A stretch of 48,988 nucleotides of DNA from the NCBI RefSeq assembly GCF_029960785.1, contig NZ_JASBQE010000090.1, forward strand, positions 1 through 48,988, given 5' to 3'. Shown piece by piece: positions 1-19,380 of the stretch. The stretch is from Polyangium sp. 15x6. GTDB taxonomy: Bacteria > Myxococcota_A > Polyangia > Polyangiales > Polyangiaceae. The translations under genes and the position numbers were made by a program. The stretch's first letter is position 1; each line of letters opens with the position of its first letter. The notes below the pieces were generated by a model. That model was not told where the DNA came from and ran no database searches. It saw only the letters and a program-made list of their open reading frames with translations.

Positions 1-50
1 TCCACGATCCGCCGCCAGCGACGCTCGGCCTTGGTCGTCCTCGTAGCCAT
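1..50 (-). CDS. Start of a truncated ORF, possibly an IS66-type accessory protein (partial)
   Basis: Only the first 16 residues (MATRTTKAERRWRRIV) are in the window; the gene runs off the left edge. The basic, Arg/Trp-rich start resembles the N-termini of small TnpA/OrfA accessory proteins of IS66-type elements, but this is a weak resemblance over very few residues. The ATG lies in frame with the RadC-like frame upstream, with no stop between them, so it could also be the tail of a RadC fusion. A GGGAGG motif (minus strand) lies about 7 bases before the ATG and supports an independent start. Confidence 0.4.
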   Translation of the reverse strand, partial: MATRTTKAERRWRRIV

Positions 51-665
51 GACAAGCCTCCCTTCAACGAGGCATACATGCATGGCCGAGGGGGGAGGCG
101 GAAGGATGGGGGTGGCGGGACGGATACTGACGCGCAGGGTGAGCTCGATGTCCTCGGCCGAGGGATTGGGATTGCCGCTCGGGTGGTTATGGATGAGGAC
201 GAACCCCGAAGCGGCGAGCTCGAGGCCAGCGCGCAGGATGTCGGATGTGCGAACGGCGAGTGCGTGGAGGCCGCCTCGGGCGAGCATCCGTGCCCCGCGG
301 AAGTGGCTCTGCCCGCTGAGCGCAAGGAGGTGCATCTCCTCGTGGATGAGGTGCCCGAGCCGGGGTTGGGCCCAGGCGACGACGTCAAGGCAGGAGGCGA
401 TCGAGGTGACGTCTGCGGCTTCGACGAACCGGCGGTGGCCGAGCTCCAGGGCGGCGAGGATACGGGTGGCTTCGTCGGGGGTGAGGGCGAAGCGCTCGGT
501 GAGGGCGAGGGGCGAGAGGCGGGTGAGAGAGGCGAGGTTGCCGAGGGATTCGAGGAGATGGGCTGCGACGCCGGGGCGTCCGAGCACGTGGTCGATCAAG
601 GCTTCGTCGGTGAAACTACCAATATCGATGGGAACCGCGAAGAGGTGGTCGGGGTTGTCTGCCAC
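51..665 (-). pseudogene. RadC-like JAB/MPN-domain protein, C-terminal end lost
   Basis: The GTG start at 665 has an AAGGAG motif about 11 bases upstream. Residues 20-80 are a helix-hairpin-helix-like helical region. Residue E109 or E110 is followed by the JAMM signature HNHPSG (H159, H161) and D172 in 'PSAEDIELTLRV', the diagnostic RadC Zn-metalloprotease motif. RadC proteins then normally continue with a strand containing LLDHhhhG; here the frame instead reads a Pro-rich stretch and enters the 16-residue frame at position 50. None of the three frames restores the RadC end. I infer truncation by an insertion or rearrangement near 75-125. RadC-like proteins are common on mobile islands and their molecular role is unsettled. 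Confidence 0.6.
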
Positions 666-1274
666 AGCGGGAGGGCTCCTTTTGTCTCTGCTATGGCTCT
701 TATCCCTGCTCGGCTCGACAAATTTCACAGAGGGTTCAGCCCCGTCGCTATGATGTTTGGGAGCTCCGACGAATGCCGTTGAGGCTACATGCGTAGCCCT
801 GTGACACACGGAACTCACCGTCCGAGCTCTCGCGCAGAGAATATAGGCGCTATTCGTGCGATCACTCCGTGCCACGCTTTGGGGTACAGGTCTGGGAGAT
901 CAGTGCCTACGCGGCACGGGTCCCTGCACTCAGGCGCCTGGGGTGGAATCCCGCCCCTTGCCCGCCTCTTGACGGACTGCAACTTTACAGGTGAGGGTGA
1001 TGCGGGGCAGCGCAGCCTACGGGTCGCCGGCGACCCCCCGGATTGAAGCGAACGGGATGCCGAACAGACCCTTCTGTGCGGCAAGCGCCAGTGGTAGATC
1101 CAACCAGGAGCGAACGGCCGTCCATGGCCGACACGCGCCCGCCCCAGGAGACCCCACAATGCAATAGTGAGCGTTCCTCATGGGCGAGACAAAGCCGCCG
1201 CGCGAGACTGGCGATCCCTCCAGTACGCTCCAAATAGCTCATTGCGCTGCCCGGTTAAGTCACCACGAAGACAG
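666..1274. other. 609-bp intergenic region, no convincing gene
   Basis: This stretch separates the RadC-like gene start (665) from the end of the ATPase gene (1275). Several short frames of 60-115 codons cross it on both strands, but none has a Shine-Dalgarno motif, a recognisable domain or the codon bias seen nearby. A small palindrome, CTACATGCGTAG, lies near 786-797. I see no tRNA, terminator with T-tract or IS end. It may be decayed accessory DNA. Confidence 0.5.
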
Positions 1275-3092
1275 CTACTTCAGGAACTCGCCAATCTCGT
1301 CAGGCACCATTGCGGCCGAGAAACGATCGGTGGGGATGTCTTCCAGCATGCCATGTATGGTCGAGCGCACCTTGGGCTGCACCGCAGTCGGAAGTGCACG
1401 GCGCACTCGGTCGAGTATGAAGTCGGCCCGATCCTTCCCCCGCTGCCAGATCTCCGGGTGCGCCCGCACCGCTGCACGAGCGGCCTTCTGCGCGTCCTTG
1501 CTCTGGCGATGCTCGGTTCGGCGAAGTACATCTGCCAGCTCGTCCTCGGCGTGTTCCAGCAAATCTGGGTCCCGGTTTGCAGCCGAGACCGCCTCGCTAA
1601 CGAGTTGCCCTACATCGCTCACGCCCGTGCTCTCTCCTTCGAGGAGCGCCGAAAAACAGGCCGCCAAGGGCTCTATGTCGAGGAAAAGCGATTCGATGCT
1701 GTGTCGTGTCCAGACCTTTCGTTTCTGCGACACCTGTCCACTCGAAATCTCTTCAACCACTGGCTTTCGCTCGTAGTCTCTGTCTAGTACAGACACCACA
1801 GCAATCCGGTCCTCGGCGTCAAGTGACAAGAGCAGATCCGAGGAGAAGAGGCTGCTGAGCAAGGAGCTCGCAGGTGCGTTTTGGGCTCCATTTAACGCTA
1901 CTGGGGTCCACTCCTCGAAGCGCCGTAGTCCATGGGGCTGGTCACGAAAGTATCCTCTTGCGCAGTTGCGGAGTATCAGGTAGTCCACTGCGCCTTCGTG
2001 CAATAGTATTCTTCTATGCTTAAGCCAGTTAATCGATGCAAACGGCATGAGATTATGAGTACGGCCGAAGACCTGGACCGCTTCAGCCTCCGTTTGCAGG
2101 CGGCGGGGATGTGAGAATGCGTCCGAGAGCGCATACAGAGCCCCCTGAAGGCGGCGTCCCAGTTGATGAGCGACTTCGATCGAGTGCGTCGCCGAAATCA
2201 CCTGCGTGTGCCCTGCGGTCGTCAGTTTTGCGAGTCGCTTAGCGACGGCTTCCTGGACACGAGGGGTAAGATGCAATTCGGGCTCATCGAGCAGCAGGAG
2301 CGTGCCACCGTCTTTTGACCTTTCGTGGCTCCGTTCGATCTCAACCAAGATCGTCGTCAAGTTTAGCAACCCTTCATTGCTCGCCGCCAGCTCAAGCTCG
2401 GTGCCCCGGCGGCGAAACATAGCTTCAAGAATTGCATTGGCCGGCGCGTTATTGATGGGCGTACGCCGGACAAGCTCCGTGTCCTGTGCCTCGCGCAGCG
2501 CACCATTCAGACGCGCGATTGATCGCTCCGAGAGGCGGGCAAGGCCGTTTCGTACAATCTCCTCATGTCGACCTGCGGCCCGGAGCGCGTCCAGTTCTGC
2601 GTTGAGGAGGAGGCGCTCGCTGGCCAGCACGCGGTGGATGCGTGAGATGAAGACCGCGGGATTCGCCGCCAGAGGAGGGCCCATGGTGCTCTCTACCTCG
2701 ACAGTGAGATCCGGCTCGTTGCCACGGACCGCAAACTCCATCCGACCACGGCGGAGCCCTCTCGCCCCGCTGAATGACGCCACGATCTCGAAGCCGTCTG
2801 CCTTGTAGCGGCCCTGATGGTGGAGGAGATTGCGCCAGCCGAGGCCCGCAGGCCAGTTGGGATCGACCACACGCTGCCGACGACGTCGCACGCACGTACC
2901 GTCTGCGCGAACAAACACTTCTGCATCTCCGCTCGCAAGCACATCTGCCGTCGCGAGCGTGAGCAATTGCATCGCTTGGAGCAGAGTGGTCTTGCCGGTT
3001 GCGTTGCGGCCTACGAGCACGGTTATCGGCGCCAGCTCCAGGTCGAGTGATCGGAACCCACGAAAGTTCGACAGCGACAGACGATTGATCAT
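1275..3092 (-). CDS. Single-chain AAA ATPase + TOPRIM (DUF4435-like) nuclease, OLD/PARIS-like
   Basis: This 605-residue protein starts MINRLSLSNFRGF, typical of RecF/SMC-like AAA_15/AAA_21 ATPases. Walker A is GRNATGKT (28-35). A SNEGLLNL segment (239-246) sits where the ABC signature is expected. Walker B is LLLLDEPELHLTPR (265-278), followed by ATHSIE (301-306). The C-terminal third carries TOPRIM-type acidic motifs: HEGAVD (365-370) and LDRDYE (436-441). These are followed by TRHSIESLFL (462-471), like the conserved 'h-IEs/nyL' motif of DUF4435. OLD-family nucleases and the PARIS proteins AriA/AriB combine these activities in anti-phage defence; fused PARIS versions are known. The start at 3092 is preferred over an upstream ATG at 3110 because homologous N-termini begin with the first beta strand. 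Base composition is lower in GC than the flanking core genes. The family assignment is sound; the PARIS label is a hypothesis. Confidence 0.75.
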   Translation of the reverse strand: MINRLSLSNFRGFRSLDLELAPITVLVGRNATGKTTLLQAMQLLTLATADVLASGDAEVFVRADGTCVRRRRQRVVDPNWPAGLGWRNLLHHQGRYKADGFEIVASFSGARGLRRGRMEFAVRGNEPDLTVEVESTMGPPLAANPAVFISRIHRVLASERLLLNAELDALRAAGRHEEIVRNGLARLSERSIARLNGALREAQDTELVRRTPINNAPANAILEAMFRRRGTELELAASNEGLLNLTTILVEIERSHERSKDGGTLLLLDEPELHLTPRVQEAVAKRLAKLTTAGHTQVISATHSIEVAHQLGRRLQGALYALSDAFSHPRRLQTEAEAVQVFGRTHNLMPFASINWLKHRRILLHEGAVDYLILRNCARGYFRDQPHGLRRFEEWTPVALNGAQNAPASSLLSSLFSSDLLLSLDAEDRIAVVSVLDRDYERKPVVEEISSGQVSQKRKVWTRHSIESLFLDIEPLAACFSALLEGESTGVSDVGQLVSEAVSAANRDPDLLEHAEDELADVLRRTEHRQSKDAQKAARAAVRAHPEIWQRGKDRADFILDRVRRALPTAVQPKVRSTIHGMLEDIPTDRFSAAMVPDEIGEFLK

Positions 3093-3247
3093 GTGCGCCT
3101 CGCGAGGCATCCTCTGCTACTCGCTGGATCCACGTAGTCAAGCCACGGAGTTCACATACTCGGTGGAGCGCATTCTAGAGATGTTCGGGTCGAAACTCGT
3201 TCTTGAGCGTTTAGCTCACCGAGCTCCGGCAAATGGGGCAGCTCGCT

Positions 3248-4993
3248 TCATGCTCCGCACGCTTGCGTCTGGGCCGTAGAAGCTGCACTTCGCGCCGTCC
3301 GCCCTGGGTCCACCTCGCCACCTTGCTCCGTGAACGCTCCGCGCGCTTGCAGCAGCGACCCTGCCGGCAACATTACCGGCGCACTCTTCGCGTCATCGAC
3401 CTCGGCGAGCTCCACGTTCAGCGCCTTCAGCGTCGACTTTGCCTTGCGCAGCAGCAAACCGAGCGCGTCGCCGCCCTTGCGCACCTCGTCGGCGAGCTTC
3501 TCCGCGTCGCTCCGGATCGACTCGCTGAGCTTGCGCATCTTGTCGAGCCGTTCGAGCTCCTTCTGGATGCGATGCTCGATGTCGGCGAGCGCCTCGATAT
3601 CGCCCGCATCGTCGGAGCGCCGCTGACGGCTCGCGAGGGCGAGGCCGAGGAGAACGGCGGCGTGGAGATACGGGTCGGTCGCCTCGTCTTCCTCGTCCCA
3701 CACCACGAGGATGTCGTTGCCGTAGCGCGCGAAGCTGGGGAACGCCGCGGGGGCGTGGCTGCGCGCCATGACTAAGATCCCGCTGTTCGCGTTGCGGTTA
3801 CCACGCGCGAGCTCGAGCTCCTGCAGGGCCTTGGTCACGGTGTACGCGCCCTCGCGTTTCGCCTCGATCACCAGGGCGCCACCCGCGTAGATGCTCTCTT
3901 GCGTGAAGCGGACGACCTGGTCGCCCACCTTGCAGCTCGGCTTTGCGCCTACGGTGTTCGCCGTCGTGTCCACCGTCACCGGCGCCCCCTGGACCGCACC
4001 CTGAACGAAGCGCAGCACGGCGTCCTGGTATTCGAATCCTCCGCGCGTCGACTTGGCGGCGCCGCGCTTGCGCTCCTCGAGACGGACGAGAGATTCGCGG
4101 ATCTCCTGCTCGAGCTTCGCCTGGCGCTCCTGCATGGCGACCATCACCTCGCGCTGCTCCTCTCCGTGCTGCCGAAGCAACGTGGAAAGCGCGTTCTTCA
4201 GGACGGCCATCGGCGAGTTGGGCATCTCGGGGTTCATGGCTGAGACGAAGGCGGTGCGGGCAGAAGCCGTCTCACGCACGAGGCGACTGAGAAGGGAGTT
4301 CTCGTCGTTGGCGTCGAGAGCCTTGGTCGCGAGCGCGAGTTGCTTGCTGCGGTCGTTGTCCGCGTCCTCCAGCTGCTGGCGCAGGGCGCGGAGGAAACGC
4401 GCGACGGCGCCGTCCTCGGCGACGGGATCGAGGGCGCGGGTGACCTCGGCCTGGTTCTCCGCGAGCGCGTCGCGCAGCTTCGACTCGAGCAGGAAGAGGA
4501 CGCCTTCGCTGTCGGTGGGGCTTAACCGGCGGAGCATCGGGCTGTTCTCGCCGAGCTCGCGGGCGAGCGTCTGCGCGAGGGCCCCATGTTCGGGCGCCAA
4601 GAAGCGCTCCATCGTCCTTGCGAGGTCGCCTTCGTCCCGCAGGAAGCCTTCGAGGCGCGTGATGACCTGGCCGTCGCGGGGGTCGAAGTAGCGCGCGAGC
4701 ACCTGCACGAGGGTCGTCTGCTGCCGCTCGATATAGGCAGCGAGCTGTTTGTCGAGATCTTCCTTCAGCGTCTTGCCGACATCCACGAGGCGCGACTCCT
4801 CGGCTTGCCGGTGCGCGTTCAACAGCGCGCGCAGCCCGACGGTCCACGCGTCGGTGACGAGGCCTGTTCGCTGGGCGTCGTTGAGGGGCGCAAAGGCGGC
4901 GAGGACGTCGGCGCGGTTGTCGAGGATGCGGGCCTCGATGGCGTTGGTCTGGGTGTTGACGTGTACGGTGAGAGGGGCTTGCGTGTTGTTCAT
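3248..4993 (-). CDS. Coiled-coil protein with PD-(D/E)XK nuclease-like domain
   Basis: The 581-residue protein is mostly long helices. Residues 60-310 are Gln/Glu/Arg-rich and coiled-coil-like, ending in a strongly charged helix (285-312). Residues 318-435 look like a restriction-endonuclease fold: FEYQDAVLRFV (320-330), a GDQVVRF strand with D358, and LVIEAKR (374-380) giving the E-x-K pair E377/K379. Then come a conserved helix and a VMARSHAP...DILVVWDEED strand. This resembles DUF2130-type nucleases. A second coiled coil spans 465-530. I chose the ATG at 4993, preceded by AAGAAGGGG, over the ATG at 5023, which has no ribosome site and whose codons overlap a sigma-54-like element. It is divergent from the CARF/sigma-54 regulator, as rtcBA is from rtcR in E. 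coli, which suggests it is a target of that regulator. Confidence 0.6.
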   Translation of the reverse strand: MNNTQAPLTVHVNTQTNAIEARILDNRADVLAAFAPLNDAQRTGLVTDAWTVGLRALLNAHRQAEESRLVDVGKTLKEDLDKQLAAYIERQQTTLVQVLARYFDPRDGQVITRLEGFLRDEGDLARTMERFLAPEHGALAQTLARELGENSPMLRRLSPTDSEGVLFLLESKLRDALAENQAEVTRALDPVAEDGAVARFLRALRQQLEDADNDRSKQLALATKALDANDENSLLSRLVRETASARTAFVSAMNPEMPNSPMAVLKNALSTLLRQHGEEQREVMVAMQERQAKLEQEIRESLVRLEERKRGAAKSTRGGFEYQDAVLRFVQGAVQGAPVTVDTTANTVGAKPSCKVGDQVVRFTQESIYAGGALVIEAKREGAYTVTKALQELELARGNRNANSGILVMARSHAPAAFPSFARYGNDILVVWDEEDEATDPYLHAAVLLGLALASRQRRSDDAGDIEALADIEHRIQKELERLDKMRKLSESIRSDAEKLADEVRKGGDALGLLLRKAKSTLKALNVELAEVDDAKSAPVMLPAGSLLQARGAFTEQGGEVDPGRTARSAASTAQTQACGA

Positions 4994-5006
4994 GGACGGC
5001 CCCTTC

Positions 5007-5022
5007 TTCAAGGCCCGTGCCA
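5007..5022 (-). promoter_or_regulatory. Sigma-54-like -24/-12 element before the divergent nuclease gene
   Basis: Reading the minus strand, the sequence is TGGCACGGGCCTTGAA. The -24 half is a perfect TGGCACG, the spacing is canonical, and the -12 half is TTGAA instead of TTGCA, so the usually invariant GC is GA. It shares 12 of 16 bases with the element before hsdR. The predicted start of transcription (about 4996) is only a few bases before the ATG at 4993, which would leave almost no leader; this argues for caution. Confidence 0.35.
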
Positions 5023-5133
5023 TGCGCTCGCGCTCGCGCGTCAGGCAGAACGCGCGGCTGTTTCGCGAGAAGAACGCACCAGGACAAGAAGAAGCTCTCT
5101 GTCGCCAGAAGGTTTGTTACCCTGCAGGCGGCG

Positions 5134-6639
5134 ATGCCTCGCGTTCTCTTGGCCTGGATTGGGAAAACCGACATCAAGGCTGCGACGGGGGACGCCTCGG
5201 CTGGCGATAGTCCCATCGCACAGGCTGTCGCCGCGCGCGCCTTCGATCACGTCGTCCTGCTGAACAACTACCGCACGGAAGAGGCTGCGCTCTTCGAACG
5301 GTGGCTCGAGAAGAAGGCGAAGGTGAACGTCGTGGTCCGGCAGGAGACGCTATCTTCTCCGACGAACCACGCGGACATCTACCGCGCCGTGACAGGGGCG
5401 GTTCCATGGGTGCTCGCGGAGTACGGCAAGAAGGCGAAGCTGACCTTCCACCTGAGCCCCGGCACACCGGCGATGGCGTCCATCTGGATCATCGTCGCGA
5501 AGACGCGCTTCGAGGCCGAGCTCATCGAGTCATCGAAGGAGGCGGGCGTCCGCACCGTCGACGTGCCCTTCGAGCTCGCCGCGGAGTTCGTCCCCGATGC
5601 AATCCGGCGCGCCGATGAGGATCTCGAGCGACTGAGCGGCGGGCTTCGCCCCGAGGAGCCCAAGTTCGGAGACATCCTGCATCGCAGCGATAAGATGAAG
5701 AGCCTGGTGCGTCGTGCTCGACAAGCGGCACCGTACTCGGCGTCGATCCTCATCGAAGGCGAGTCCGGGACGGGCAAGGAGTTGCTCGCGGCGGCGATCC
5801 ACATGGAGAGCCCGCGCAAGGGCCAACCCTTCGTCCCCGTGAACTGTGGCGCGATTCCGAAGGACCTCGTCGAGTCGAGCTTGTTCGGGCACGTGAAGGG
5901 TTCGTTCACCGGCGCCTTCGCGGACTACGCTGGCGTCTTCGAGCAGGCCAACAACGGAACGCTCTTCCTCGATGAGGTGGGAGAGCTGCCGCTCGATGCG
6001 CAGGTGAAGCTGCTCCGCGCGCTCCAGGAGAAGGAGGTCCGGCCCATCGGCGGCAAGAAGGAGGTCAAGGTCGACGTCCGCGTGATCGCGGCGACGAACC
6101 GCAACCTTCTGGAAGAGGTCCGCACCCGTCGCTTCCGGGAGGACTTGTACTTCCGGCTCGCCGTGCTCGTTCTGAAGGTACCTCCGCTACGCGATCGTGA
6201 AGGAGACGTCGGGCTCCTCCTCCAGAAGCTCCTCGACAGGCTCAACGTGGACATGGCAGCCCAGTCCGGCGGGGTGCAGAAGAAACTTTCTGTCGGGGCA
6301 AAGAACCTTCTCCAGCGGCACCCCTGGCCCGGCAACGTCCGCGAGCTCGAGGCCACACTGCTGCGCGCCTACATCTGGTCGAAAGGGCCGGTCATCGAGG
6401 AGGCTGAAGCGCGTGAGGCGCTCGTCGGGGTCCCTGGGGGACAGACCCAGGACGTGCTGGAGCGCCCCCTCGGGGATGGCTTCAGTTTGACGGACCTCCT
6501 CGGCGACGTCGCTCGTCACTACCTGGCGCGCGCGATGGCTGAAGCGAAGGGGAACAAGACGAAGGCAGCTTCCCTCGTCGGGCTCGCCAACTACCAGACG
6601 CTGAAGAACTGGCTCGAGAAGTACGAGGTCGCTGGTTGA
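5134..6639 (+). CDS. RtcR-like sigma-54 activator with N-terminal CARF domain
   Basis: The 501-residue protein has three parts. Residues 1-155 form a Rossmann-like CARF domain: a first strand RVLLAWIG, an acidic loop, NHADIYRAV, and the ligand-loop motif HLSPGTPAMASIW (106-118). This parallels 'HITTGTHVAQICW' of E. coli RtcR. Residues 178-430 form the AAA+ enhancer-binding domain: Walker A GESGTGKE (209-216), the sigma-54 contact loop GSFTGA (256-261, Ala to Ser variant of GAFTGA), Walker B GTLFLDE (275-281) and WPGNVRELE (398-406). Residues 450-497 are a Fis-type helix-turn-helix (KGNKTKAASLVG...YQTLKNWLEKY). The start at ATG 5134 is where the CARF strand begins; earlier in-frame ATGs add only a basic, non-conserved leader. 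No rtcA or rtcB is nearby; instead the gene sits between a divergent nuclease gene and a restriction operon. In known relatives the CARF domain binds a nucleotide or RNA ligand and releases ATPase activity to open sigma-54 promoters. Confidence 0.85.
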   Translation: MPRVLLAWIGKTDIKAATGDASAGDSPIAQAVAARAFDHVVLLNNYRTEEAALFERWLEKKAKVNVVVRQETLSSPTNHADIYRAVTGAVPWVLAEYGKKAKLTFHLSPGTPAMASIWIIVAKTRFEAELIESSKEAGVRTVDVPFELAAEFVPDAIRRADEDLERLSGGLRPEEPKFGDILHRSDKMKSLVRRARQAAPYSASILIEGESGTGKELLAAAIHMESPRKGQPFVPVNCGAIPKDLVESSLFGHVKGSFTGAFADYAGVFEQANNGTLFLDEVGELPLDAQVKLLRALQEKEVRPIGGKKEVKVDVRVIAATNRNLLEEVRTRRFREDLYFRLAVLVLKVPPLRDREGDVGLLLQKLLDRLNVDMAAQSGGVQKKLSVGAKNLLQRHPWPGNVRELEATLLRAYIWSKGPVIEEAEAREALVGVPGGQTQDVLERPLGDGFSLTDLLGDVARHYLARAMAEAKGNKTKAASLVGLANYQTLKNWLEKYEVAG

Positions 6640-6655
6640 TGGAACGGGCTCTGCA
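6640..6655 (+). promoter_or_regulatory. Sigma-54 -24/-12 promoter of the restriction operon
   Basis: TGGAACGGGCTCTGCA matches the consensus TGGCACG-N4-TTGCA at all but two consensus positions. It keeps the essential GG and GC dinucleotides at exactly ten bases apart. It begins one base after the stop codon of the CARF/sigma-54 activator and 49 bases before the hsdR ATG. Transcription would start near 6666, leaving a leader of about 23 bases that contains the GAGGAG ribosome site. Its placement next to a bEBP gene makes function likely; it is unproven. Confidence 0.65.
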
Positions 6656-6688
6656 CTTGGCGCGGGCATGCTGCGCGAGGAGACCATC

Positions 6689-9600
6689 ATGAAATCGCAG
6701 AACTTCGAGTTCTTGCGACGGAAGCATCCCGCGCTCGCCGACCTCGGCGGGTTCGCGGAGGTGTATGCGCGGACCGACCCGGGCAGCTCGCTGATCAAGC
6801 TGAGGCTCTTCGTCGAGCGCGTCGTGGGCCTCATCTACGCTGGGTATGGGCTTCCGCGCCCCTACAGCGACAACTTGAACGACTTGCTGAACGAGACGGT
6901 CTTCCGTTCGGCCGTCCCCGAGGTGGTCCTCAACAAGCTCCACGCCATCCGTAAGTCGGGCAATCGCGCCGCGCATCGAGAGGCTCCGAGCACGCAGGTC
7001 GCTCTCCTGAACCTGCGGGATGGCTTCGACATCGGGCAGTGGGTGCACGTACAGCTCGACGGAGGGAGCCCAGGGCAATGCCCGGCGTACCGCGAGCCGC
7101 CTCCGCCGGCGCAACCTGGCGCCGCGCTCGAGAAGGCGACGAAGGAGGCCGAGGCCAAGCTCGCCGCTCAGGAAGCGCAGCTCAAGAAGGTGCTCGCCGA
7201 CCTCGAAGCCGAACGCAAGAAGCGTGAGGCGGCCGAGCAGTCGTTCTCCGTCACGCAGGAGCAGCTCGAGCAGCTTCGGGCCGAGGGGCAGAAGGCTGCC
7301 AACATCCTCCACTTCAACGAGCTCGCGACGCGCCGTCGGCTGATCGACGAACAGCTCCTCGAGGCAGGCTGGGACGTCGGGAAAAACGGCAAGGACACGG
7401 AGCAGGTACGGCAGGAGGTGCAGGTCTTCACCATGCCCACGCCTTCGGGCGAAGGGTACGCCGACTACGTGCTTTATGGCGATGACGGCAAGCCCCTCGC
7501 GGTCGTCGAGGCGAAGAAGACCTCCAAGGATGCACGGGCCGGCGCCGAGCAGGCGCGCATCTATGCGACGTGCCTCGAGAAGGAGACGGGCCAGCGTCCC
7601 GCCGCCTTTTATACGAACGGGAGCGATATCTACCTGTGGGACGACGCCCAGGGATACACGCCCCGCAAGGTCTACGGCTTCTACTCGAAGGACAGCCTCG
7701 AGTACCTGATCCACCAGCGAAAAAACAAAATGCCGCTCGCCGCGGCGGCGCCGAACCTCGCCATCGCCGAGCGCATGTACCAGCTCGAGGCGGTGAAGCG
7801 CGTCAGCGAGCGCTTCGACAAGAAGTTCCGCCGCGCGCTTCTCGTACAGGCCACGGGCACGGGCAAGACACGCGTGGCGATCTCCCTCTGCGAGCTCCTC
7901 ATGCGCGCTGGCTGGGCAAAGCGCATCTTGTTTCTCTGCGACCGTCGCGAGCTCCGCAAGCAGGCCGACAAGGTCTTCAAGGAGTTTCTGCCCGGCGAGC
8001 CGCGCGTCGTCGTCGACAGCACGACCTCGTCGGAGCGGGACAAACGCATCTACCTCGCCACGTACCCGGCGATGATGAAGTGCTTCGAGAGCTTCGACGT
8101 TGGCTTCTTCGACCTGGTCATCGCCGACGAGTCGCACCGCAGCATCTACAAGAAGTTCCGCGAGTTGTTTCTGTACTTCGACGCCCTGCAGGTCGGCCTG
8201 ACGGCGACGCCGGTGCAGTTCATCGACCGCGACACGTTCAAGCTGTTCGGGTGCGAAGATAACGATCCAACGTCGAACTTCAGCTTCGGGGAGGCCGTCA
8301 ACTCGACGCCGTCCTACCTCGTGCCGTTCCGCGTGCGCGAGTTCCAATCGAAGTTCCGCAAGGACGGATTCAAGTATTCGCAGATGTCGGCCGACCAGCG
8401 GGCGGAGCTGGAGGAGCAGGAGGAAGACGCGTCGACCGTCGAGCACGAGGCGGACGAGCTCGATAAGGATGTCTTCAACAAGCCCACGAGCCGGATCATC
8501 CTCCGCAGCCTCATGGAAGAGGGGATCCGCGATGCGACCGGGAGCCGCATCGGCAAGACCATCGTCTTCGCGCGAAACCACCTCCACGCGGTGCACCTCG
8601 CCGAGCTGTTCGACGAGCTCTACCCGCAGTACGGGGGCACGTTCTGCCGGGTCATCGACAACCAGGAAGCACGCGCCGACCAGCTCATCGACGACTTCAA
8701 AAACAAGGACAGCGACCCGGTCATCGCGATCTCGGTCGACATGCTGGACACGGGCATCGACGTGCCCGAGGTCGTGAACCTCGTCTTCGCCAAGCCGGTC
8801 AAATCGTACGTGAAGTTCTGGCAAATGATCGGCCGCGGCACGCGCCTCTGCGAGAACCTCTTCGGGCCGGGGAAGGACAAGACCGAGTTCCTGATCTTCG
8901 ACCACGGGCGCAACTTCTGGTTCTTCGAGGAGAAGTACAAAGAGAAGCAGCCCTCGCCGCAGAAATCGCTGTTGCAGAAGGTCTTCGAGGCGCGCATCGC
9001 GGTCGCGGAGGCGGCGCTCGAAAAGATGAACGAGCCGGTATTCCAGGCGACGGTCGACCTTCTCGTGCAGGACATCCGGGATGTGATTGCCTCGAAGAGC
9101 ATTGCCGTGCGCGACAGGCGCATGGAGCTCGAGCGGCTGTCCGACCGGGAGACACTCGCCCAGTTCGCGGCGGCGACCAAGGCGGACCTGCTCTCGATCG
9201 CGGCGCCGCTCATGCAGTGGCGCAACATTCGCGGCGAGGAGGACGCTTACCGCTTCGACCTGCTCGTGACCCGGCTCGAAGAGGCGGTGCTCAAGAGCGC
9301 CCCCGCCGTGGCTGATCTGAAGGCGGCCGTGGAAGTCGAGGTGGCCCGCCTGATGAAGAACCAGAACCCGGTGAAGGCGAAGGCGGCGGCCATCCTGGCG
9401 GTCGAGAGCAAGGAGTTCTGGACGGCCGTCACCGTGCCAAAGCTCGAAGACATCCGTGGGGAGCTGCGCGGGATCATGAAGTATCAGGCGCAGGTGACGA
9501 CGGGTCGCCTCACGCCGCGCGTCTTCGACGTCAGCGACTCCGACATCGAAGGCGTCGACCATACCCCCAAGCTCGAGGGGCTCGAGCTCATCGAGTACCG

Positions 9601-10099
9601 GCACCGCGTCGAGAAGGTCATCCGTGAGCACTTCGCGAACGACCCGACGCTGCAGCGCATCCGCCTGGGCAAGGCCGTCCCCGAGGAAGAGCTCGAAGCG
9701 CTGGCCACGCTGGTGCTCCGCGTCGACGACAAGGCCAACCTGAAGCACCTCGTCCAGCCCGAACTGAAGCGGTCGCTGCTCGACGTGCTGCGCGGCCTGG
9801 TGGGGCTCGATCCTGGTGCGGTCGACGAGGCCTTCACCGTCTTCGTGCACAAGCACCCTCACCTCTCCGCGCAGCAGCTCCGGTTCATGCAGCTGCTGAA
9901 GAACCATATCGCGCAGAACGGGGGCATCGAGCTCGAGCGGCTCTACGAGCCACCGTTCACCACCATCCACGCCGAAGGCATCGACGGCGTGTTCACCGAA
10001 GCGGGCCAGGTCGACGAGATCCTGGCCATTCTCGAGACCTTCCAGCCGCGAAAGGCGTCGCCGTCGAGCCGGCCGCCCCCCGCAAAGCAAGCATCATGA
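6689..10099 (+). CDS. hsdR: Type I restriction endonuclease subunit R (EcoEI-like HsdR)
   Basis: The 1136-residue ATP-dependent translocase/nuclease subunit of a type I R-M enzyme. The N-terminal ~110 residues are DUF4145-like (HEPN-type motif RKSGNRAAH), followed by a coiled coil (about 140-205). The HSDR_N nuclease core follows: [20 protein letters not shown], with the E-x-K around residue 272. The helicase core has Walker A ATGTGKT near 388, DESH near 480, motif III GLTATP, and motifs V/VI ([21 protein letters not shown]). The C-terminus is EcoEI_R_C-like. I use the ATG at 6689 because it has GAGGAG seven bases upstream; the in-frame ATG at 6668 lies at the predicted transcription start. 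The stop overlaps the hsdM start (ATGA at 10096), so translation is coupled. Modification and specificity subunits follow in order. Confidence 0.92.
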
Positions 10100-11595
10100 T
10101 CACCGGCAAGCTGAAGACCGATATCGACAGGCTGTGGGAAGAGTTCTGGACCGGCGGCATCACGAACCCGCTGACGGTCATCGAGCAGATTTCGTTCCTC
10201 ATGTTCGCGCGTCTGCTCGATGTCACCGAGACGCGAAACGAGAAGCGGGCGGAGCGGACGAAGAAGGCGTTCAAGGGGACGTTCGACGGCCCGGACGATC
10301 CACGGCGCTGGAAGAACTTCAAGCACCTAAAGGCCGAGCAGATGCTGGCGGTCGTGAACCAGAAGGTTTTCCCGCACTTCCGGAAGCTGAACGGGGGGAC
10401 GACGTTCGCCGAGTACATGGCCGACGCGCAGCTCATGATCCAGAAGCCGAGCCTTTTGGTGTCGGCGGTGAACATGATCGACGCGCTGCCGATCACGGAC
10501 GGCGATTCGAAAGGGGACCTTTACGAGTACCTGCTGAGCAAGCTCACGACGGCGGGGATCAATGGTCAGTTTCGGACGCCGCGGCACATCATCCGGTTCA
10601 TGGTCGAGATGCTCGACCCGAAGCCGACGGAGACGGTCGGGGATCCGGCGTGCGGGACGGCGGGCTTTCTCGTGGGTGTGATGTCGTACCTACTGGAGAA
10701 GTACACGTCGCCGAAGGGGATTGTGATCGGCGAGCACGGCGAGAAGGTTTATACGGGGGACAAGCTCGAGCAGTATCGTGAGCATATCCAGAATGATATG
10801 TTCCACGGGTTCGACTTCGACAGCACGATGCTGCGGATCGCGTCGATGAACCTGATGCTCCACGGGGTCGAGAACCCGGACATCCATTATCAGGATACGC
10901 TGTCGAATTCGTTCCCGGAGAAGTTCGGGAAGCAGGCGACGGGGTATTTCGACGTGATTCTCGCGAATCCGCCGTTCAAGGGGAGCCTGGACGCCGAGGA
11001 TGTGCATCCGACGCTGACGCAGAAGGTGAAGACGAAGAAGACGGAGTTGCTGTTCGTCGGGCTGATTTTGCGGATGTTGAAGAGGGGCGGGCGGAGCGCG
11101 ACGATTGTGCCGGATGGCGTGCTGTTCGGGTCGTCGAAGGCGCATGTGGCGCTGCGGCAAATGCTGGTCGAGGACAACCAGCTCGAGGCGGTTGTCTCGT
11201 TGCCGTCGGGCGTCTTCCGGCCCTACGCTGGCGTCTCCACGGCCATCCTGGTCTTCACCAAGGGTGGCAAGACCGAGCACGTTTTCTTCTACGACGTCGA
11301 GGCCGACGGCTATTCGCTCGACGACAAACGCGACCGGGTGAAGGAGAACGACCTCCCCGACGCGCTCGTACGGTGGCACAAGAAGAGCCCAGCGGACACC
11401 GATCGAACCGTAAAGCACTTCATGGTGCCGGTCGCCGAGATCCGGGACAAGAACTTCGACCTCTCGATCAACCGCTACAAGGAGGCGGTGCATGAGGAGG
11501 TGAATTACGACTCGCCGAAGGTGATTCTGAAGAAGCTGCGGGCGCTGGAGGCAGAGATCGCTACCGACCTGAATGCGCTGGAGGAGATGCTTTGA
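10096..11595 (+). CDS. hsdM: Type I DNA methyltransferase subunit M
   Basis: The 499-residue N6-adenine methyltransferase has an HsdM_N helical domain (residues 1-150; '[19 protein letters not shown]...[11 protein letters not shown]'). The SAM-binding motif I is DPACGTAGF (about 183-191) and the catalytic motif IV is NPPF (about 290-293). The length is typical of HsdM. It transfers methyl groups to adenines in the bipartite site read by HsdS and is also part of the restriction complex. The gene starts inside the hsdR stop (ATGA), and its own stop overlaps the TTG start of hsdS (TTGA at 11592), so the three genes form one coupled transcript. No frameshift or missing catalytic residue is seen. 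Confidence 0.95.
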
Positions 11596-12869
11596 GCTGG
11601 CGTCGAGTACCTCTCGGAAGCGTTGCCGACATCCAGCTCGGCAAAATGCTGTCGCCGAAGGCACGTACCGGCGTGTCGAGCTACCCCTATCTGCGCAACG
11701 TGAACGTCCAGTGGGGGCGACTAGACTTTTCCGATCTTATCGAGATGGACTTCGACGAAGAGGACCGAGCCAAATTCTCGCTAAAGCAAGGTGACCTCTT
11801 AGTGTGCGAAGGTGGAGAACCAGGCAGGTGCGCCGTCGTCGAGCGAGACCAACCCGGCGTTTTTTTCCAGAAGGCGTTGATGCGGGTTCGACCTCGAGAC
11901 AGTCGCCTCGATACCCGATTCTTACAGCGATTCATGGCGTTCGCTGCGGAACGCGGCACGTTTGCAAGACATGGGAATCAGGCGACTATTGCTCACTTCC
12001 CCGCCGTGAAGTTGAGTGCTTTTGAAGTTCCGCTTCCCCCCCTTCCCGAGCAGCGCCGCATCGCCGACATCCTCGACAAGGCCGACGCGGTTCGACGCAA
12101 GCGGCAGGAGGCCATCGCCCTCACCGAGGAGCTGCTGCGGTCGGCGTTCCTGAAGATGGTGGGGCCGCACGCTTCGGATTACAGCACATGGCGAGAAGTC
12201 ACCTTGGAGACCCTGGCGCACCCCGGTCCAAACACGATGAGGACGGGTCCCTTCGGAAGCGACCTCCGGCACTCGGAGTTTGTTGATACCGGGGTCGCGG
12301 TGCTCGGCATCGACAACGCTGTCCAGAACCGGTTCGTCTGGGGCGAGAGACGATACATCACGCAAGAGAAGTACGAGGGACTCAAGCGGTACACGGTTCG
12401 ACCGCACGATGTCATCATAACCATCATGGGGACTACCGGCAGGTCCGCCGTTGTCCCCGAGGACATCCCACTCGCCATCACGACGAAGCACCTTGCAACT
12501 CTGACGCTAAACCGCGCATTGGCAGAGCCGGAGTTCGTGGCGCAGGCAATTCATCGCCATCCCGCCGTCCTCGCGCAAGTTCACAAGGCGAACCGAGGAG
12601 CCATCATGAGCGGTCTCAACCTTGGTCTCATCAAGTCGTTGGTCGTCCGGCTGCCGCCGATTGAATACCAGCAACGCTTCGCCGCCCTCACAACCCGTGT
12701 TCGCGAGCTTGGACGACGGCTTGAGAGCGCGCAGGGCGAGGCAGATGGCTTGTTCGCGGCACTCGTGCAGCGGGCGTTCCGCGGTGAGCTTACGGCGAAA
12801 TCAACTATCTCGATGGTGCAACCGCAGACGCAGGTGCTCGACGCTTCGTCGACACGGAAGCAGGCATGA
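11592..12869 (+). CDS. hsdS: Type I R-M specificity subunit S
   Basis: The 425-residue HsdS carries two target-recognition domains, each followed by a conserved helical spacer. TRD1 spans residues 1-150. The first spacer is [20 protein letters not shown] (about 149-169) and continues to about 190. TRD2 spans roughly 195-355 and contains the typical '[18 protein letters not shown]' and '[21 protein letters not shown]' elements. The second spacer is about 360-410, ending in RAFRGEL. Translation starts at TTG 11592, overlapping the hsdM stop. Both TRDs have visibly lower GC and different codon use from the spacers and from hsdR/hsdM, the usual sign of TRD exchange. The DNA target cannot be read from sequence alone. 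The stop overlaps the next ATG (12866). Confidence 0.93.
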
Positions 12870-14521
12870 TTACCCGCATCGAACTCGAGAACTTCAAGGG
12901 CATCTGCGATCGTGCTTCGCTGAATTTAAGGCCCATTACGCTACTGTTTGGGGCCAATAGTTCAGGCAAGAGTACTATCATCCAAGCATTGCATTACGCG
13001 CTTGAGATATTCCGCCACCGTAACTTTGATGCTGACCGGACGACGCTCGGCGGACGCTCCGTCGACCTCGGCGGGTTCCAGAGCATGGTACACGCCCACG
13101 ACCTCGACAAGCGCATTACGATGCTGTTTGCGATCGACGTGAGCGACTCGACGCTGCCAGATCATACGGTGGGAAACACGGATCTGACGCCCGAGTCGCC
13201 GGGTTTTGCCGGTGCCCCGGACATGGATGATCAGATCATGACGGTTTGGGCTCGAATTGAAGTTGGGTGGAGTCTCGCCCTGCGAGCACCGCAGGTCTTC
13301 GTGTATGAGGTGGGCGTCAACGATCGCGAGACGCCAGTGATTCGTATCGACGCCAGCGCAGGAAAGGGGCAACCCGCAACGCTAAGTCTCCACGTTGATG
13401 ACGCGCTATTCACACGGCCCAACAGCGAGCCTGACGAGGCGACGCCACTCCTCCAGCACCTCGCCGACGCTGACGTGGGCGTGAGCCCGGATCGGCGCGC
13501 TTCTTTTCCCATCTATGATCAGCCCTCGGCCATCCCGAATTGGGGACGGCCCCTCCGAATCTGGGCGACGAGCGACATGGAGCCCATTCCAGATGCACTT
13601 ATCGAGCTGCGTCGGCTCCTGAGCAAGTTAGCTGTCGGGATTGGCGAGCAGCTCCTCGCCCAGCTCGAGCGTATGCTGTACGTAGGTCCCCTCCGCGTCG
13701 TCCCGCCGCGAAGCTATCAGCCGCCGCTCACGGAAGACCTTTCTCGTTGGGCCGACGGATTGGGCGCATGGGACGCACTCTATCGGCGCGGGCCTCATTT
13801 GCCTTCCCGCGTCAGCGAATGGATGACACGCCTCGGAGCCGGTTATCGCATTGAACTCCGGAAAGTCTTCGAACTGCCGGAAGCGATCCGAGATGTGGAT
13901 CATGAGCTAACATATATCGTCAATACTGCGCTACACGATGACGAAGGGAATGTGCGGTTGTCGCGGGCCCAATTCGATTGTTTTCGACGTGTAGCGGAGG
14001 TTGTCCGAGAGGCGCGGGAACGCACTGATCTAGTGCTGATCGACGAGCGCAATGGCGTTGCCGTTCGACCCTACGACGTTGGCGTAGGCATCTCTCAAGT
14101 GCTCCCGATCATCGTGGCCGCCCTTTACCGTGGGGAGCGCGGGGCCGGTGCGTTCGTCACCATTGAGCAGCCGGAGCTGCATATTCATCCGAGATTGCAG
14201 GTGGCCCTGGCCGATCTCTTCATCGAGCAGAGCACGAGGGGGACGAGCAGCGATCATTGGTTTTTGCTGGAGACGCACAGCGAGCACCTGATGCTTCGAC
14301 TCATGCGCCGTATCCGGGGATCCTCGGAAGCAGACGCCGGGAGCACTGAAGACGGCGAGGAGCGTCTTCGGCTGCCGCCGCACCACGTGGGGGTCATTTA
14401 TGTCCAGCGGGACGATGACGGTGCCGTGCGGTTCGTACCCCTCGAGCTCGATAGCAGTGGCGAGTTTCGCGACGTTTGGCCCGAAGGGTTTTTCGACGAG
14501 CGACTTCGAGAGCTGTACTGA
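12866..14521 (+). CDS. AAA ATPase with DUF3696-type C-terminus
   Basis: The 551-residue RecF/OLD-type ATPase begins [12 protein letters not shown]. Walker A is GANSSGKST (29-37). The ABC-like signature segment is VGVGISQVLPI (about 407-417). Walker B is FVTIEQPELHIHPR (about 429-442) and the switch/H-loop is LLETHSEHLMLR (about 469-480). The end (VGVIYVQRDDDG...DVWPEGFFDERLREL) matches the DUF3696 module often found in defence ATPases. No TOPRIM follows, so any nuclease or effector is presumably the next gene, whose start overlaps this stop by one base (TGATG). The gene also overlaps the hsdS stop (ATGA). Base composition is clearly lower in GC than hsdR or the McrBC pair, so this two-gene unit probably entered the operon separately. 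A paired ATPase-effector role is inferred. Confidence 0.8.
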   Translation: MITRIELENFKGICDRASLNLRPITLLFGANSSGKSTIIQALHYALEIFRHRNFDADRTTLGGRSVDLGGFQSMVHAHDLDKRITMLFAIDVSDSTLPDHTVGNTDLTPESPGFAGAPDMDDQIMTVWARIEVGWSLALRAPQVFVYEVGVNDRETPVIRIDASAGKGQPATLSLHVDDALFTRPNSEPDEATPLLQHLADADVGVSPDRRASFPIYDQPSAIPNWGRPLRIWATSDMEPIPDALIELRRLLSKLAVGIGEQLLAQLERMLYVGPLRVVPPRSYQPPLTEDLSRWADGLGAWDALYRRGPHLPSRVSEWMTRLGAGYRIELRKVFELPEAIRDVDHELTYIVNTALHDDEGNVRLSRAQFDCFRRVAEVVREARERTDLVLIDERNGVAVRPYDVGVGISQVLPIIVAALYRGERGAGAFVTIEQPELHIHPRLQVALADLFIEQSTRGTSSDHWFLLETHSEHLMLRLMRRIRGSSEADAGSTEDGEERLRLPPHHVGVIYVQRDDDGAVRFVPLELDSSGEFRDVWPEGFFDERLRELY

Positions 14522-15495
14522 TGATCTACGAATACGCATTGGAACCCGAGTTGGTCGCTTCGTGGGTCGACCGAGCGGCTTATCGGTTCTTCGATGGCAA
14601 ATTCGGGCTCGGCTGCCGCCGTATCGCGTCAGCCTTCCCCTCGAATGAAGCATGGAGAAGACGCGTTGTCGAAGTGTTAGAAGCAACGTTCGTTGGACGT
14701 TCCGAGCCGGAGAAACAAGCTGCGAGGAAGCGGCTGGACGCGCTCCTGTCGCACTTCCGCCCCATATCGGAGCGGAGAGGCGCGCTCGCCACGACGTGGC
14801 GGCAAGATATCCTCGCCGAGCACCGCGAATACCCGTTCGCGGCCTTACTCGGCCACGCCACGCCGCGGCCCACCGCTCCCATCGTGATCGCCGAGGACCT
14901 CGACGAACAGCATCCGGCTTGGATCCTTCCGACGCCTCCCACGCCGCGGCGGGCGGCTGAATTTGCCAAGGCGCTACGACCGATGCTCCGATTTGCTCGA
15001 GATATCAGGTTCGTGGATCCCTATTTCGACCCGGAGAAAGACAACTTCAGTGAGCCTCTGGCTGCAATGATAGAGGCGGCGCAACAACGGCGCGACCCCA
15101 GGGGCGTTCGATTCCAAGTACATACTGCGATCAATGAGGCTCGTCGTAAAGGCTTGCCGAAGGAAGCGAGCTGCCGCTCGGAGGACATTGCACGGGAAAT
15201 ATGCAACACGTGCAGTGCGCGGTTCACCGCGAACCTTCGGCCGGGTGTGGAATTGGCCGTCTGCGTATGGGAAGAGAGCGCCGGCGACAAACTGCACAAT
15301 CGCTACGTCCTCTCGGATATCGGCTCGGTGGGTTTACCGGCGGGACTCGAGCAGGCCCGCAAGAGGCAGCTTGCCCATACCGACGACATCTTCGTGCTCT
15401 CGCGCGAGCAACACGCTCGGCGCTGGACGCAATACCGCATTGATAGCACCGAATTCAAACGCGCGCGAGCACCGTTGATCATCGTAGGCAAATGA
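14521..15495 (+). CDS. PLD-superfamily-like protein with HxRx4D motif
   Basis: This 324-residue protein is of no family I can name. Residues 1-110 are helical and carry many Arg. Residues 160-172 (RDIRFVDPYFDPE) look like the first core strand of a phospholipase-D-like fold. Residues 257-277 contain KLHNRYVLSD followed by a Gly-containing turn (GLPAGLE). H259, R261 and D266 have the exact spacing of the HxKx4D signature, with Lys replaced by Arg. A Cys cluster (C218, C228, C231) precedes it. Only one such half is visible, so catalysis would need a dimer or the motif may be degenerate. The ATG overlaps the ATPase stop (TGATG), indicating a coupled pair, and the McrB-like gene begins one base after this stop. 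Low GC matches the ATPase gene. It could be a nuclease effector or a structural partner. Confidence 0.55.
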   Translation: MIYEYALEPELVASWVDRAAYRFFDGKFGLGCRRIASAFPSNEAWRRRVVEVLEATFVGRSEPEKQAARKRLDALLSHFRPISERRGALATTWRQDILAEHREYPFAALLGHATPRPTAPIVIAEDLDEQHPAWILPTPPTPRRAAEFAKALRPMLRFARDIRFVDPYFDPEKDNFSEPLAAMIEAAQQRRDPRGVRFQVHTAINEARRKGLPKEASCRSEDIAREICNTCSARFTANLRPGVELAVCVWEESAGDKLHNRYVLSDIGSVGLPAGLEQARKRQLAHTDDIFVLSREQHARRWTQYRIDSTEFKRARAPLIIVGK

Positions 15496-15496
15496 C

Positions 15497-17806: not shown

Positions 17807-19380
17807 GCCTCCAGGTCCGCGGCGCGGATGGCTCGGACGAGCACATCATCGACGGGGTCTTGCGCCTCGAAGAGGCAAGAACCTACCACATCGACGCGTT
17901 GCCCGGCGCGAGCGCGCCGCGGGCGTGGCTCGGGCCGCGGGAGTTACCCTGGAGCGAGGAACGCGGGACGTTCACGCTCGAAGTGGGCCATTGGGTCGGC
18001 TCGGCGGCGCTACGGGTAGCTCACGGCACGCAAGAGACGGTGGTGCCTGTCGAGGTGGCGCCGCGTCAAGAGAAGCTCTCCGACGGCGCATGGCTTTCGC
18101 TGCTCGCGGATCTGGAGGCGTGGTCGCCGGGCCTGGCGATCGGCCTCGAGGGCGGCGGCGTCGGCGCCGTACAGACCGAGGGCACCACGGCCACGATCCT
18201 GGCCGCGGCCCTGTTGCCGCTCGTGCCGGCGCTCATCCGAGCCATTCGGGCCATTGCCGCCGCTCCGCGGGAGCTCGCGACGTCCACGCGCGAGGACATC
18301 CCGCTACGCGCCGTGCGACGCGCCGATCGGGAGACGCTTCAGTGGCTCGCAAGGCACCCGGCGGTCGCGCGCGCGGTAGATCCATGGCTGGCCGCTCGCA
18401 CGGGCTTGCAGGACCCCTACGTCCCGCAGGACACGACGCATGAGACCGTCGATCACCCAGTCAACCGCTATATCGCCTGGATCATCGGAAGAATCGCCCG
18501 CGTGCTCGGCGAGCTGACCGACGCGCTCGGCCGCGCTGCTCGAAATCCGCGTCTGCAACCGGACACCGCACAATGGTGTCGCGCGCGAGGCCGCGCGGCT
18601 GCGAGCGCCACCGACGAGCTATTGGCCACGTTGCGCCGAACGTTCCTCGGGTCGTTGACGCCCATGCCCGCCACCGAGGCCGCGCTTCTCGCGGTGCAGG
18701 ACGATCCTGTCTACGCCCGCGCCCACGCGCTGGCGCGTCCTTTCCTATCGCCTCGGTTTCGCCTGTGCGAGTCGCGGGACGGCGGCGAGGCTCCGGTGCG
18801 TCCGAGCTTCGAGCTCTACGAGCTGTGGACGCTGCTTGCCGTCCAGCGGGCGCTCGCCGAGACGCTCGACGGATGGACGTGGACCTGGCACCCGGTCCCG
18901 GGGAATGAGCTTCTCGCTGGTTTTGGGCCGGGAGCGGCGTTCACCGCGAGGCGGGCGGACGGAGCACGCCTCGACCTGCGATACAACGTGACCTTCTCCG
19001 GGTACCTCGCACGGGGGAACTCGGACAAATACAGCATTTCTGGCGAGAGACGCCCCGATATTGTGATCTCGTTCGAGCCCCAGGCCGGCCAGCGCTCGTG
19101 GATCTGCCTGGATGCCAAGTACCGCGTTCGTCGGGACGCGATCGCGGACGCCTTCGCCTCGCTCCACATCTATCGCGATTCACTGCGGTGGGAGGCGTTT
19201 GGCGGGCGATGTCGCAGCGGCCTGCTCTTGGCCCCTGCGGTCGATCCCGAATGCCAGCCCTGGTTCATGAGCGAGTTCCGCGAGCGGTTCGGTATCGGCG
19301 CATGGCGACTGACGCCGGGGGAGCCGTCGGACCTTACGCTGGGAAAGCTCATCCTCGCCAGGGTAGGTGACCCGGCATGA
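17803..19380 (+). CDS. McrC-like PD-(D/E)XK nuclease (DUF2357-type)
   Basis: The 525-residue partner of the McrB-like motor. The N-terminal half is DUF2357-like: beta-rich 1-90, then helical with THETVDHPVNRYIAWII around 208-224. The C-terminal domain has the nuclease core RRPDIVIS (D419) followed by WICLDAKYRV (D437, K439), giving the D...D-x-K form of the PD-(D/E)XK site used by McrC and DUF524 proteins. The start overlaps the mcrB stop (ATGA at 17803). It is the last gene of the operon; the next strong terminator on this strand is about 300 bases downstream. Cleavage would depend on motor-driven translocation between sites, by family knowledge. No key residue appears lost. Confidence 0.8.
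   Translation: MSLQVRGADGSDEHIIDGVLRLEEARTYHIDALPGASAPRAWLGPRELPWSEERGTFTLEVGHWVGSAALRVAHGTQETVVPVEVAPRQEKLSDGAWLSLLADLEAWSPGLAIGLEGGGVGAVQTEGTTATILAAALLPLVPALIRAIRAIAAAPRELATSTREDIPLRAVRRADRETLQWLARHPAVARAVDPWLAARTGLQDPYVPQDTTHETVDHPVNRYIAWIIGRIARVLGELTDALGRAARNPRLQPDTAQWCRARGRAAASATDELLATLRRTFLGSLTPMPATEAALLAVQDDPVYARAHALARPFLSPRFRLCESRDGGEAPVRPSFELYELWTLLAVQRALAETLDGWTWTWHPVPGNELLAGFGPGAAFTARRADGARLDLRYNVTFSGYLARGNSDKYSISGERRPDIVISFEPQAGQRSWICLDAKYRVRRDAIADAFASLHIYRDSLRWEAFGGRCRSGLLLAPAVDPECQPWFMSEFRERFGIGAWRLTPGEPSDLTLGKLILARVGDPA

Follow-up and report, generated by a model that had tools for sequence, protein, structure and literature searches.

Gabija GajA, a class 2 OLD protein, and the effectors of retrons Eco8 and Eco2 pair an ABC ATPase with a TOPRIM domain. 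In PARIS, the ATPase senses, the TOPRIM protein cleaves tRNA, and growth stops (PMC12409363). Single-gene fusions of the two PARIS proteins (AriAB; PADLOC model AriAB PDLC02981) have already been published (Rousset et al. 2022, PMC9122126; PMC12409363; PMC10568477), so a fused AriAB, which a first-pass annotation of this DNA had suggested as a possibility, would not be new. Among the matches listed by our literature search, which left most subscription papers outside, no title announced that the function of a fused AriAB had been tested. Whether such fusions make up an OLD class of their own, or act by a mechanism unlike that of class 1 OLD nucleases, is left open in one review (PMC10568477). 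The class 1 enzyme Ts OLD (from T. scotoductus) is described as binding metal A through E377, D431 and D433 and metal B through D381, S478 and E480, and as having no C-terminal helical domain (PMC7049728). Single-gene phage defence has been reported for HEC-04 / IbfA, an ABC ATPase fused to a TOPRIM domain (PMC12111858), which, compared by description only, has the same two-domain, one-gene layout as the protein described here.

We examined a gene in a 48,988-nucleotide stretch of DNA from Polyangium sp. 15x6 that is rich in antiviral genes (the whole stretch is called the window); the gene product, like the fused AriAB of PARIS, carries ATPase and TOPRIM in one chain. We consider it fairly probable that this product is a defence nuclease that acts alone as one chain and is a distant relative of fused AriAB.

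The ATPase-TOPRIM gene and its motifs

The ATPase-TOPRIM gene at 1275-3092 is real. Its open frame runs from 3110 to 1275 on the minus strand (611 aa), and plus-strand frame 1 across 1275-3092 holds several stops; the first-pass annotation had given the interval exactly and left the strand (3092..1275) unstated. Translation from the ATG at 3092 yields 605 aa, and four full-length relatives, at 28-32% identity to the window protein, align from the same methionine; the upstream ATG at 3110 is an alternative start. Aligned with these four relatives, the window protein is gapped over 28 columns near residue 145; the relatives carry 21-28 residues there. Its description as compact is apt beside its own family (605 aa, versus 634-658 aa in six full-length relatives) but not beside every AriAB-type fusion: six of these, all with DUF4435, span 573-698 aa.

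Table 1. Features of the ATPase-TOPRIM gene and its predicted product (window coordinates; residues of the 605-aa form).
Feature	Residues	Coordinates	Strand	Basis
Whole gene, 605 aa + stop	1-605	1275..3092	-	start Met common to four full-length relatives
Walker A (P-loop) GRNATGKTT	28-36	2985..3011	-	sequence; AAA_15/AAA_21 above cut-off
Walker B TLLLLDEPELHL	264-275	2268..2303	-	sequence; 5-row alignment
H-loop SATHS (H303)	300-304	2181..2195	-	sequence; 5-row alignment
TOPRIM motif 1 EGAVD	366-370	1983..1997	-	hhalign to DUF4435 and OLD motif 1; predicted ligands E366, D370
TOPRIM motif 2 DRD	437-439	1776..1784	-	hhalign to DUF4435 and OLD DxD; predicted metal A ligands
S-I-E, inside HSIESLF (464-470)	465-467	1692..1700	-	hhalign to DUF4435 IE motif; predicted metal B ligands
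C-terminal helical region, with QRGKDR (550-555)	494-605	1278..1613	-	AlphaFold2 models

The N-terminal half is an SMC/OLD-type ABC ATPase. In agreement with the AAA_15-type motifs first read from the letters, the whole protein scored above the Pfam cut-offs for both AAA_15 (78.1 bits, cut-off 32.1, E 1.3e-21) and AAA_21 (56.6 bits, cut-off 27). In the five full-length rows (the window protein and the four relatives), D269, E270, P271, E272 and H274 of Walker B and A301, T302, H303 and S304 of the H-loop were invariant. The full-chain AlphaFold2 model (pLDDT 80.6, pTM 0.61) had T. scotoductus OLD (6p74) as its top Foldseek match (1e-11), with PtuA, retron Eco8, GajA and SMC-type heads among further matches. 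When residues 1-349 were compared by VIA, the matches listed were mostly SMC/cohesin, Rad50 and PtuA-type heads.

The TOPRIM-like motifs announced for the same 605-residue chain were likewise all found, in the half where they had been predicted. E366, G367, D437, D439, S465, E467, S468 and L469 were invariant in the five full-length rows and also across seven C-terminal rows, which include a gammaproteobacterial MAG; the position of D370 held D in six of these seven rows and E in one. Judged from the alignments, such conservation among relatives at 28-32% identity is more than chance. The order of residues in the window protein, E366, D437 and D439 for metal A and D370, S465 and E467 for metal B, matches class 1 OLD as a motif pattern, not as a superposition, and by this pattern none of the six metal ligands of OLD nucleases is missing. 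The HSIESLF motif had been put forward as a DUF4435-like feature, but it is not specific to DUF4435, because its S-x-E is also the pattern of S478/E480 in class 1 OLD (PMC7049728). We therefore read it as a candidate metal-B pair that OLD and AriB-like enzymes share. Three of the six DUF4435 fusions have H-x-E in place of the S-x-E of the window protein; one of them, L046, also has S-x-E.

The spacing between the second DxD aspartate and the glutamate of (x)IE was 26-30 residues in all seven family rows (the HSIES-type candidate being picked by eye where several were present), 26-28 in all five rows of a second ring of sequences, and 20-26 in nine of 11 DUF4435 rows. Four OLD rows had 31-33 and the others far longer spacings or no candidate, by automatic picks that were ambiguous, and spacing was therefore not used as a discriminator.

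The nuclease domain between AriB and OLD

Single-model searches did not settle the TOPRIM family, whether with Pfam, PADLOC or PHROGs (whole protein and C-terminal piece) or with NCBIfam (whole protein). PF14491 (DUF4435) matched neither the whole protein at E<=1 nor residues 334-605 at E<=10, and gave no match at E<=1e-3 across the window's genome. The published PARIS rule asks for AAA_15 (32 bits) or AAA_21 (27 bits) together with DUF4435 at 27 bits or more (PMC9122126). The window protein exceeds the ATPase thresholds (78.1 and 56.6 bits) and draws no PF14491 score, and because the Pfam model gives no match it is not DUF4435 by that rule. PF20469 (OLD-like_TOPRIM) likewise matched neither the window protein nor its C-terminal piece, and three relatives reached E 0.011-0.16, all below the cut-off. 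A sequence search of the PDB with the C-terminal profile gave nothing notable (best 0.064), nor did two DUF4435 pieces searched in the same way.

The PADLOC results were divided. With the whole protein, the Old model (74.0 bits) outscored AriAB (54.8 bits, strongest over residues 264-380), and the AriAB model also gave 30.9 to another ATPase of the window (12866-14521). Among seven C-terminal pieces of the family, three had no match, one matched AriAB weakly (0.0073), one matched AbiLii (0.003), and two had GajA as their best match (6e-6 for L038, and 0.0069); among the matches listed for the seven pieces there was no HEC-04 model.

Profile-profile comparison was carried out with sets of 11 DUF4435 rows, 16 OLD rows and five second-ring rows. 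The family scored 95.1% with DUF4435 over 108 columns, covering the core through the IE motif, and 90.5% with OLD over 75 core columns that end shortly after DxD. Controls stayed at or below 0.2% for 39 column-shuffled profiles per set and at 0.1% and 0.3% for reversed ones. The C-terminal piece of the window protein by itself scored 60.8% with DUF4435, 1.1% with OLD and 88.7% with the second ring. The family reached 98.4% with the second ring, which in turn reached 95.9% with DUF4435; against the fused DUF4435 rows the family scored 94.2%, versus 60.3% against the stand-alone rows.

Scoring of individual rows drew a less sharp line. The OLD HMM was slightly above the DUF4435 HMM in two of the seven family rows (L002, 10.9 vs 10.0 bits; L040, 10.2 vs 9.4), and the remaining five were higher on DUF4435, the window protein at 11.8 vs -0.5. 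The family HMM barely separated the two sets, with 14.0 and then 4.5 bits for DUF4435 rows and 6.8 for the best OLD row. In a quick tree, the eight family rows grouped together (99) and joined three ring ATPases (SH-aLRT 96). A branch supported at 91 separated 12 of the OLD rows from a side that held the family, the ring, the six DUF4435 fusions and the remaining OLD row, a long one; support was 24 for the DUF4435 fusions as a group and 78 for OLD as a group, with long-branch warnings.

The comparison also brought up other proteins of this kind. L058, L068 and L003 form a sister group of single-chain ATPase-TOPRIM proteins that have the same layout, an (E)IE motif and no TOPRIM match in Pfam, and that link the family to DUF4435. 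Two stand-alone frames of 294 and 311 aa (L065 1234-2115, minus strand, and L067 1198-2130, plus strand) carry EGxxD, DRD and an RRHIE motif. Neither has a Pfam match above cut-off, L065 matches AriAB (1.1e-5), and both may be solo AriB-like nucleases.

The C-terminal piece was modelled alone (272 residues, numbered 334-605 in the 605-aa form and 340-611 in the 611-aa form) with AlphaFold2 and a seven-row alignment, giving pLDDT 83.8 and pTM 0.79. Foldseek returned one match at E<=1e-3, AriA-AriB 8v46_D (8.1e-4, probability 0.96, TM 0.28). By VIA, AriB 8ux9_A led with Z 11.6 (rmsd 5.4, 216 of 306 residues aligned) and 8v46_D followed with 10.9; lower rows were 2p62 (7.8), retron Eco2 9i2f (6.8), B. 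pseudomallei OLD 6nk8 (6.7) and GajA (5.5 and 5.1). Mostly helical models can reach a Z of about 13 through a common arrangement. We nevertheless favour the AriB match because of its lead over the lower rows and its near-complete coverage of the piece (residues 16-272 of 272); families missing from the VIA lists were not counted as evidence. The match is loose (Foldseek TM 0.28, VIA rmsd 5.4), and AriB exceeds the OLD targets in length. In the predicted models, helices run through residues 494-605, unlike in Ts OLD.

Among the solved TOPRIM structures that came up in the search, AriB is thus the one closest to the predicted nuclease domain, and on this model the domain falls, by a loose match, within the AriB fold. 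Its predicted fold is AriB-like, and its sequence places it more probably on the DUF4435 side, in a continuum with OLD. Of the DUF4435-like character first proposed, the profile-profile link (95.1%) and the AriB-like model speak in favour, and the Pfam DUF4435 model misses it. The first-pass annotation had named, as the outcome that would count against it, profiles placing the domain in the OLD TOPRIM family with no DUF4435 similarity; DUF4435 profile similarity was found instead.

Distribution and genomic neighbourhood

By tblastn and profile searches, the family comprises eight genomes and a decayed copy on Leptolyngbya plasmids. With the seven-row C-terminal alignment, 11 of 377 genomes of the phylum matched at E<=1e-3, six of them strongly, the window's genome included (five at 3.6e-118 to 3.8e-107, one at 2.7e-56). 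Because the window and four other strong genomes had supplied alignment rows, only G302 is independent among the strong ones. The three same-genus genomes within these 377 gave no strong match. In the class of the Thiomicrospira MAG, two of 369 genomes matched, the strong one being the seed itself. A scan of contigs found seven loci, five of them on contigs that, judged by size, had already come up, a figure that is a floor and not a census because the scan used a single peptide pattern; among viral contigs no relative was found. The plasmid copy was present in four of 72,556 plasmid records, on Leptolyngbya boryana plasmids. The one of the four that was read (L021 7550-9416) is broken by stops and a frame change, is annotated as separate short proteins, adjoins an IS4 transposase, and was the highest-scoring of eight related loci (35.7% over 462 aa).

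The neighbours of the gene in the window are radC, a coiled-coil ORF, an RtcR-type CARF regulator, a type I R-M operon, an NsnB-like ATPase and McrB/McrC-like genes. The direct flanks are radC and the ORF at 3248-5023, with no adjacent GajB helicase, and families of UvrD-type helicase or reverse transcriptase were absent from the 10 neighbouring ORFs scanned. No tRNA gene was found in the window, and Rfam at the gathering threshold gave no match in positions 1-6000.

When 11 window proteins were searched by tblastn (E<=1e-3) against the eight related loci, with flanks of up to 10 kb per side of which several end at contig ends, only the ATPase-TOPRIM protein itself recurred; the 12866-14521 ATPase gave three matches, which coincide with homologues of that protein. 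The R-M neighbourhood is therefore unconserved among the flanks examined. The gene looks stand-alone, as had been suggested, because homologues of the other window genes could not be detected in the eight loci and no shared partner appears in their flanks. Ten neighbours of five relatives were searched with Pfam: five belonged to general families (aminomethyltransferase, dehydrogenase, ClpB, TPR, protein kinase), three matched Uma2 or ABC-three-component domains, one was EcsC below cut-off, and one matched nothing. The locus L044 lies near ABC-three-component genes and L040 near a Uma2 gene.

Several features of the surrounding DNA were recorded in their own right. The ORF at 3248-5023 (minus strand, upstream of the gene) encodes a 591-aa coiled-coil protein that contains a VIEAKR motif and matches Mrr_cat weakly (E 0.02); it has no homologue in the eight related loci. 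On the plus strand, positions 5017-19380 hold a CARF-AAA-HTH regulator of RtcR_PspF2 type (PADLOC 9.5e-193) directly upstream of HsdR/HsdM/HsdS, followed in the same region by an NsnB/DUF3696-like ATPase, a 339-aa ORF and McrB/McrC-like genes; as most neighbouring genes overlap, this region looks like one regulated defence operon. Flanked by the NsnB-like ATPase and the McrB-like gene, the 339-aa ORF (14476-15495, plus strand) was matched by nothing in Pfam, PADLOC, NCBIfam or PHROGs.

GC3 of the window gene is 0.67, versus 0.83-0.90 for HsdR, HsdM, RtcR, McrB and the ORF at 3248-5023, which hints at acquisition from elsewhere. Within the cluster, low values (0.67-0.71) were seen for the window gene, HsdS, the NsnB-like ATPase and the 339-aa ORF, and values of 0.81-0.90 for HsdR, HsdM, RtcR, McrB and McrC.

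Function and alternatives

The family is probably a divergent fused-PARIS-like subfamily that Pfam DUF4435 misses, and its members would be putative abortive-infection nucleases. Of the earlier suggestion of a fused PARIS, what stands is the AriB-like nuclease model and the profile link to DUF4435; the missing Pfam DUF4435 match and the mixed PADLOC results do not fit it. We think it rather unlikely that the protein is a class 1 OLD nuclease acting on DNA by degradation or nicking, with its likeness to AriB reflecting shared TOPRIM ancestry and a C-terminal helical bundle. Such an enzyme would account for a single chain with no shared partner in the eight related loci and no UvrD/PcrA/Rep helicase seen adjacent to the window gene (the relatives' flanks are partly annotated), for the E..D, DxD and SxE pattern with its class 1 metal-B pair, and for 6p74 as the best full-chain Foldseek match; the OLD profile score of 90.5% and GajA as the best PADLOC match of two of seven family pieces point the same way. 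It fits poorly with the nuclease-domain VIA scores (AriB 11.6, OLD and GajA at most 6.7), with the window piece alone (1.1% OLD vs 60.8% DUF4435), with the unmatched PF20469, and with a modelled C-terminal helical domain that Ts OLD does not have. GajA and retron Eco2 had the lower structural scores against the nuclease domain, and the UvrD-type helicase or reverse transcriptase that would recall GajA or retrons Eco8/Eco2 is not among the 10 neighbouring ORFs.

That the protein is a true PARIS member, sensing anti-restriction (Ocr-like) proteins and guarding the neighbouring type I R-M locus, we regard as improbable. The PARIS of E. coli B185 does sense Ocr (PMC9122126), the nuclease domain is AriB-like by prediction, and HsdR/M/S lie in the window at 6668-12869. 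However, the gene is on the strand opposite to hsd with two genes between, PF14491 gave no match, and tblastn found no HsdR, HsdM or HsdS homologue in the eight related loci (flanks of up to 10 kb, often shorter). Ocr sensing is in any case not a given even for PARIS, because PARIS also senses Ptr1 and Ptr2 of T5 (PMC12409363), and neither the sequence nor the conserved context of the eight loci held a pointer to Ocr as the trigger. A housekeeping or cell-cycle role in place of defence, such as has been described for the archaeal OLD-like ATPase Cran1, is very improbable. The general kinds found for five of the 10 scanned neighbours of five relatives, and the lack of relatives in viral contigs, are consistent with it. 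The very patchy distribution (strong matches in six of 377 phylum genomes and in none of the three of the same genus), the decayed plasmid copy and the adjoining R-M and McrBC-like genes argue against it, as does the low GC3 of 0.67, although HsdS and two other cluster genes are equally low.

For the reading that we prefer, in which a remote relative of fused AriAB defends the cell on its own as a one-chain nuclease, the following mechanism may be proposed. The ATPase would multimerise with ATP and keep the nuclease inactive until an infection signal alters the state of the ATPase-nuclease assembly. Since the nuclease is covalently attached, it could not be released in the manner of AriB and would therefore be activated in place, possibly when TOPRIM domains pair up, either inside one particle or across particles. 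By analogy with AriB, the active nuclease would cut host nucleic acid, most likely RNA (tRNA in the case of AriB), and growth of the infected cell would stop. Only tentatively do we suggest the more specific possibility that the family is a separate branch of one-chain PARIS-like nucleases, whose effector cannot be released and is switched on in place, with a trigger of its own and tRNA or another target.

A family placed between AriAB and OLD, with an AriB-like domain tied to its ATPase, would allow a direct test of whether activation needs release of the effector. It also indicates that detection based on DUF4435 can overlook part of the AriB-like range.
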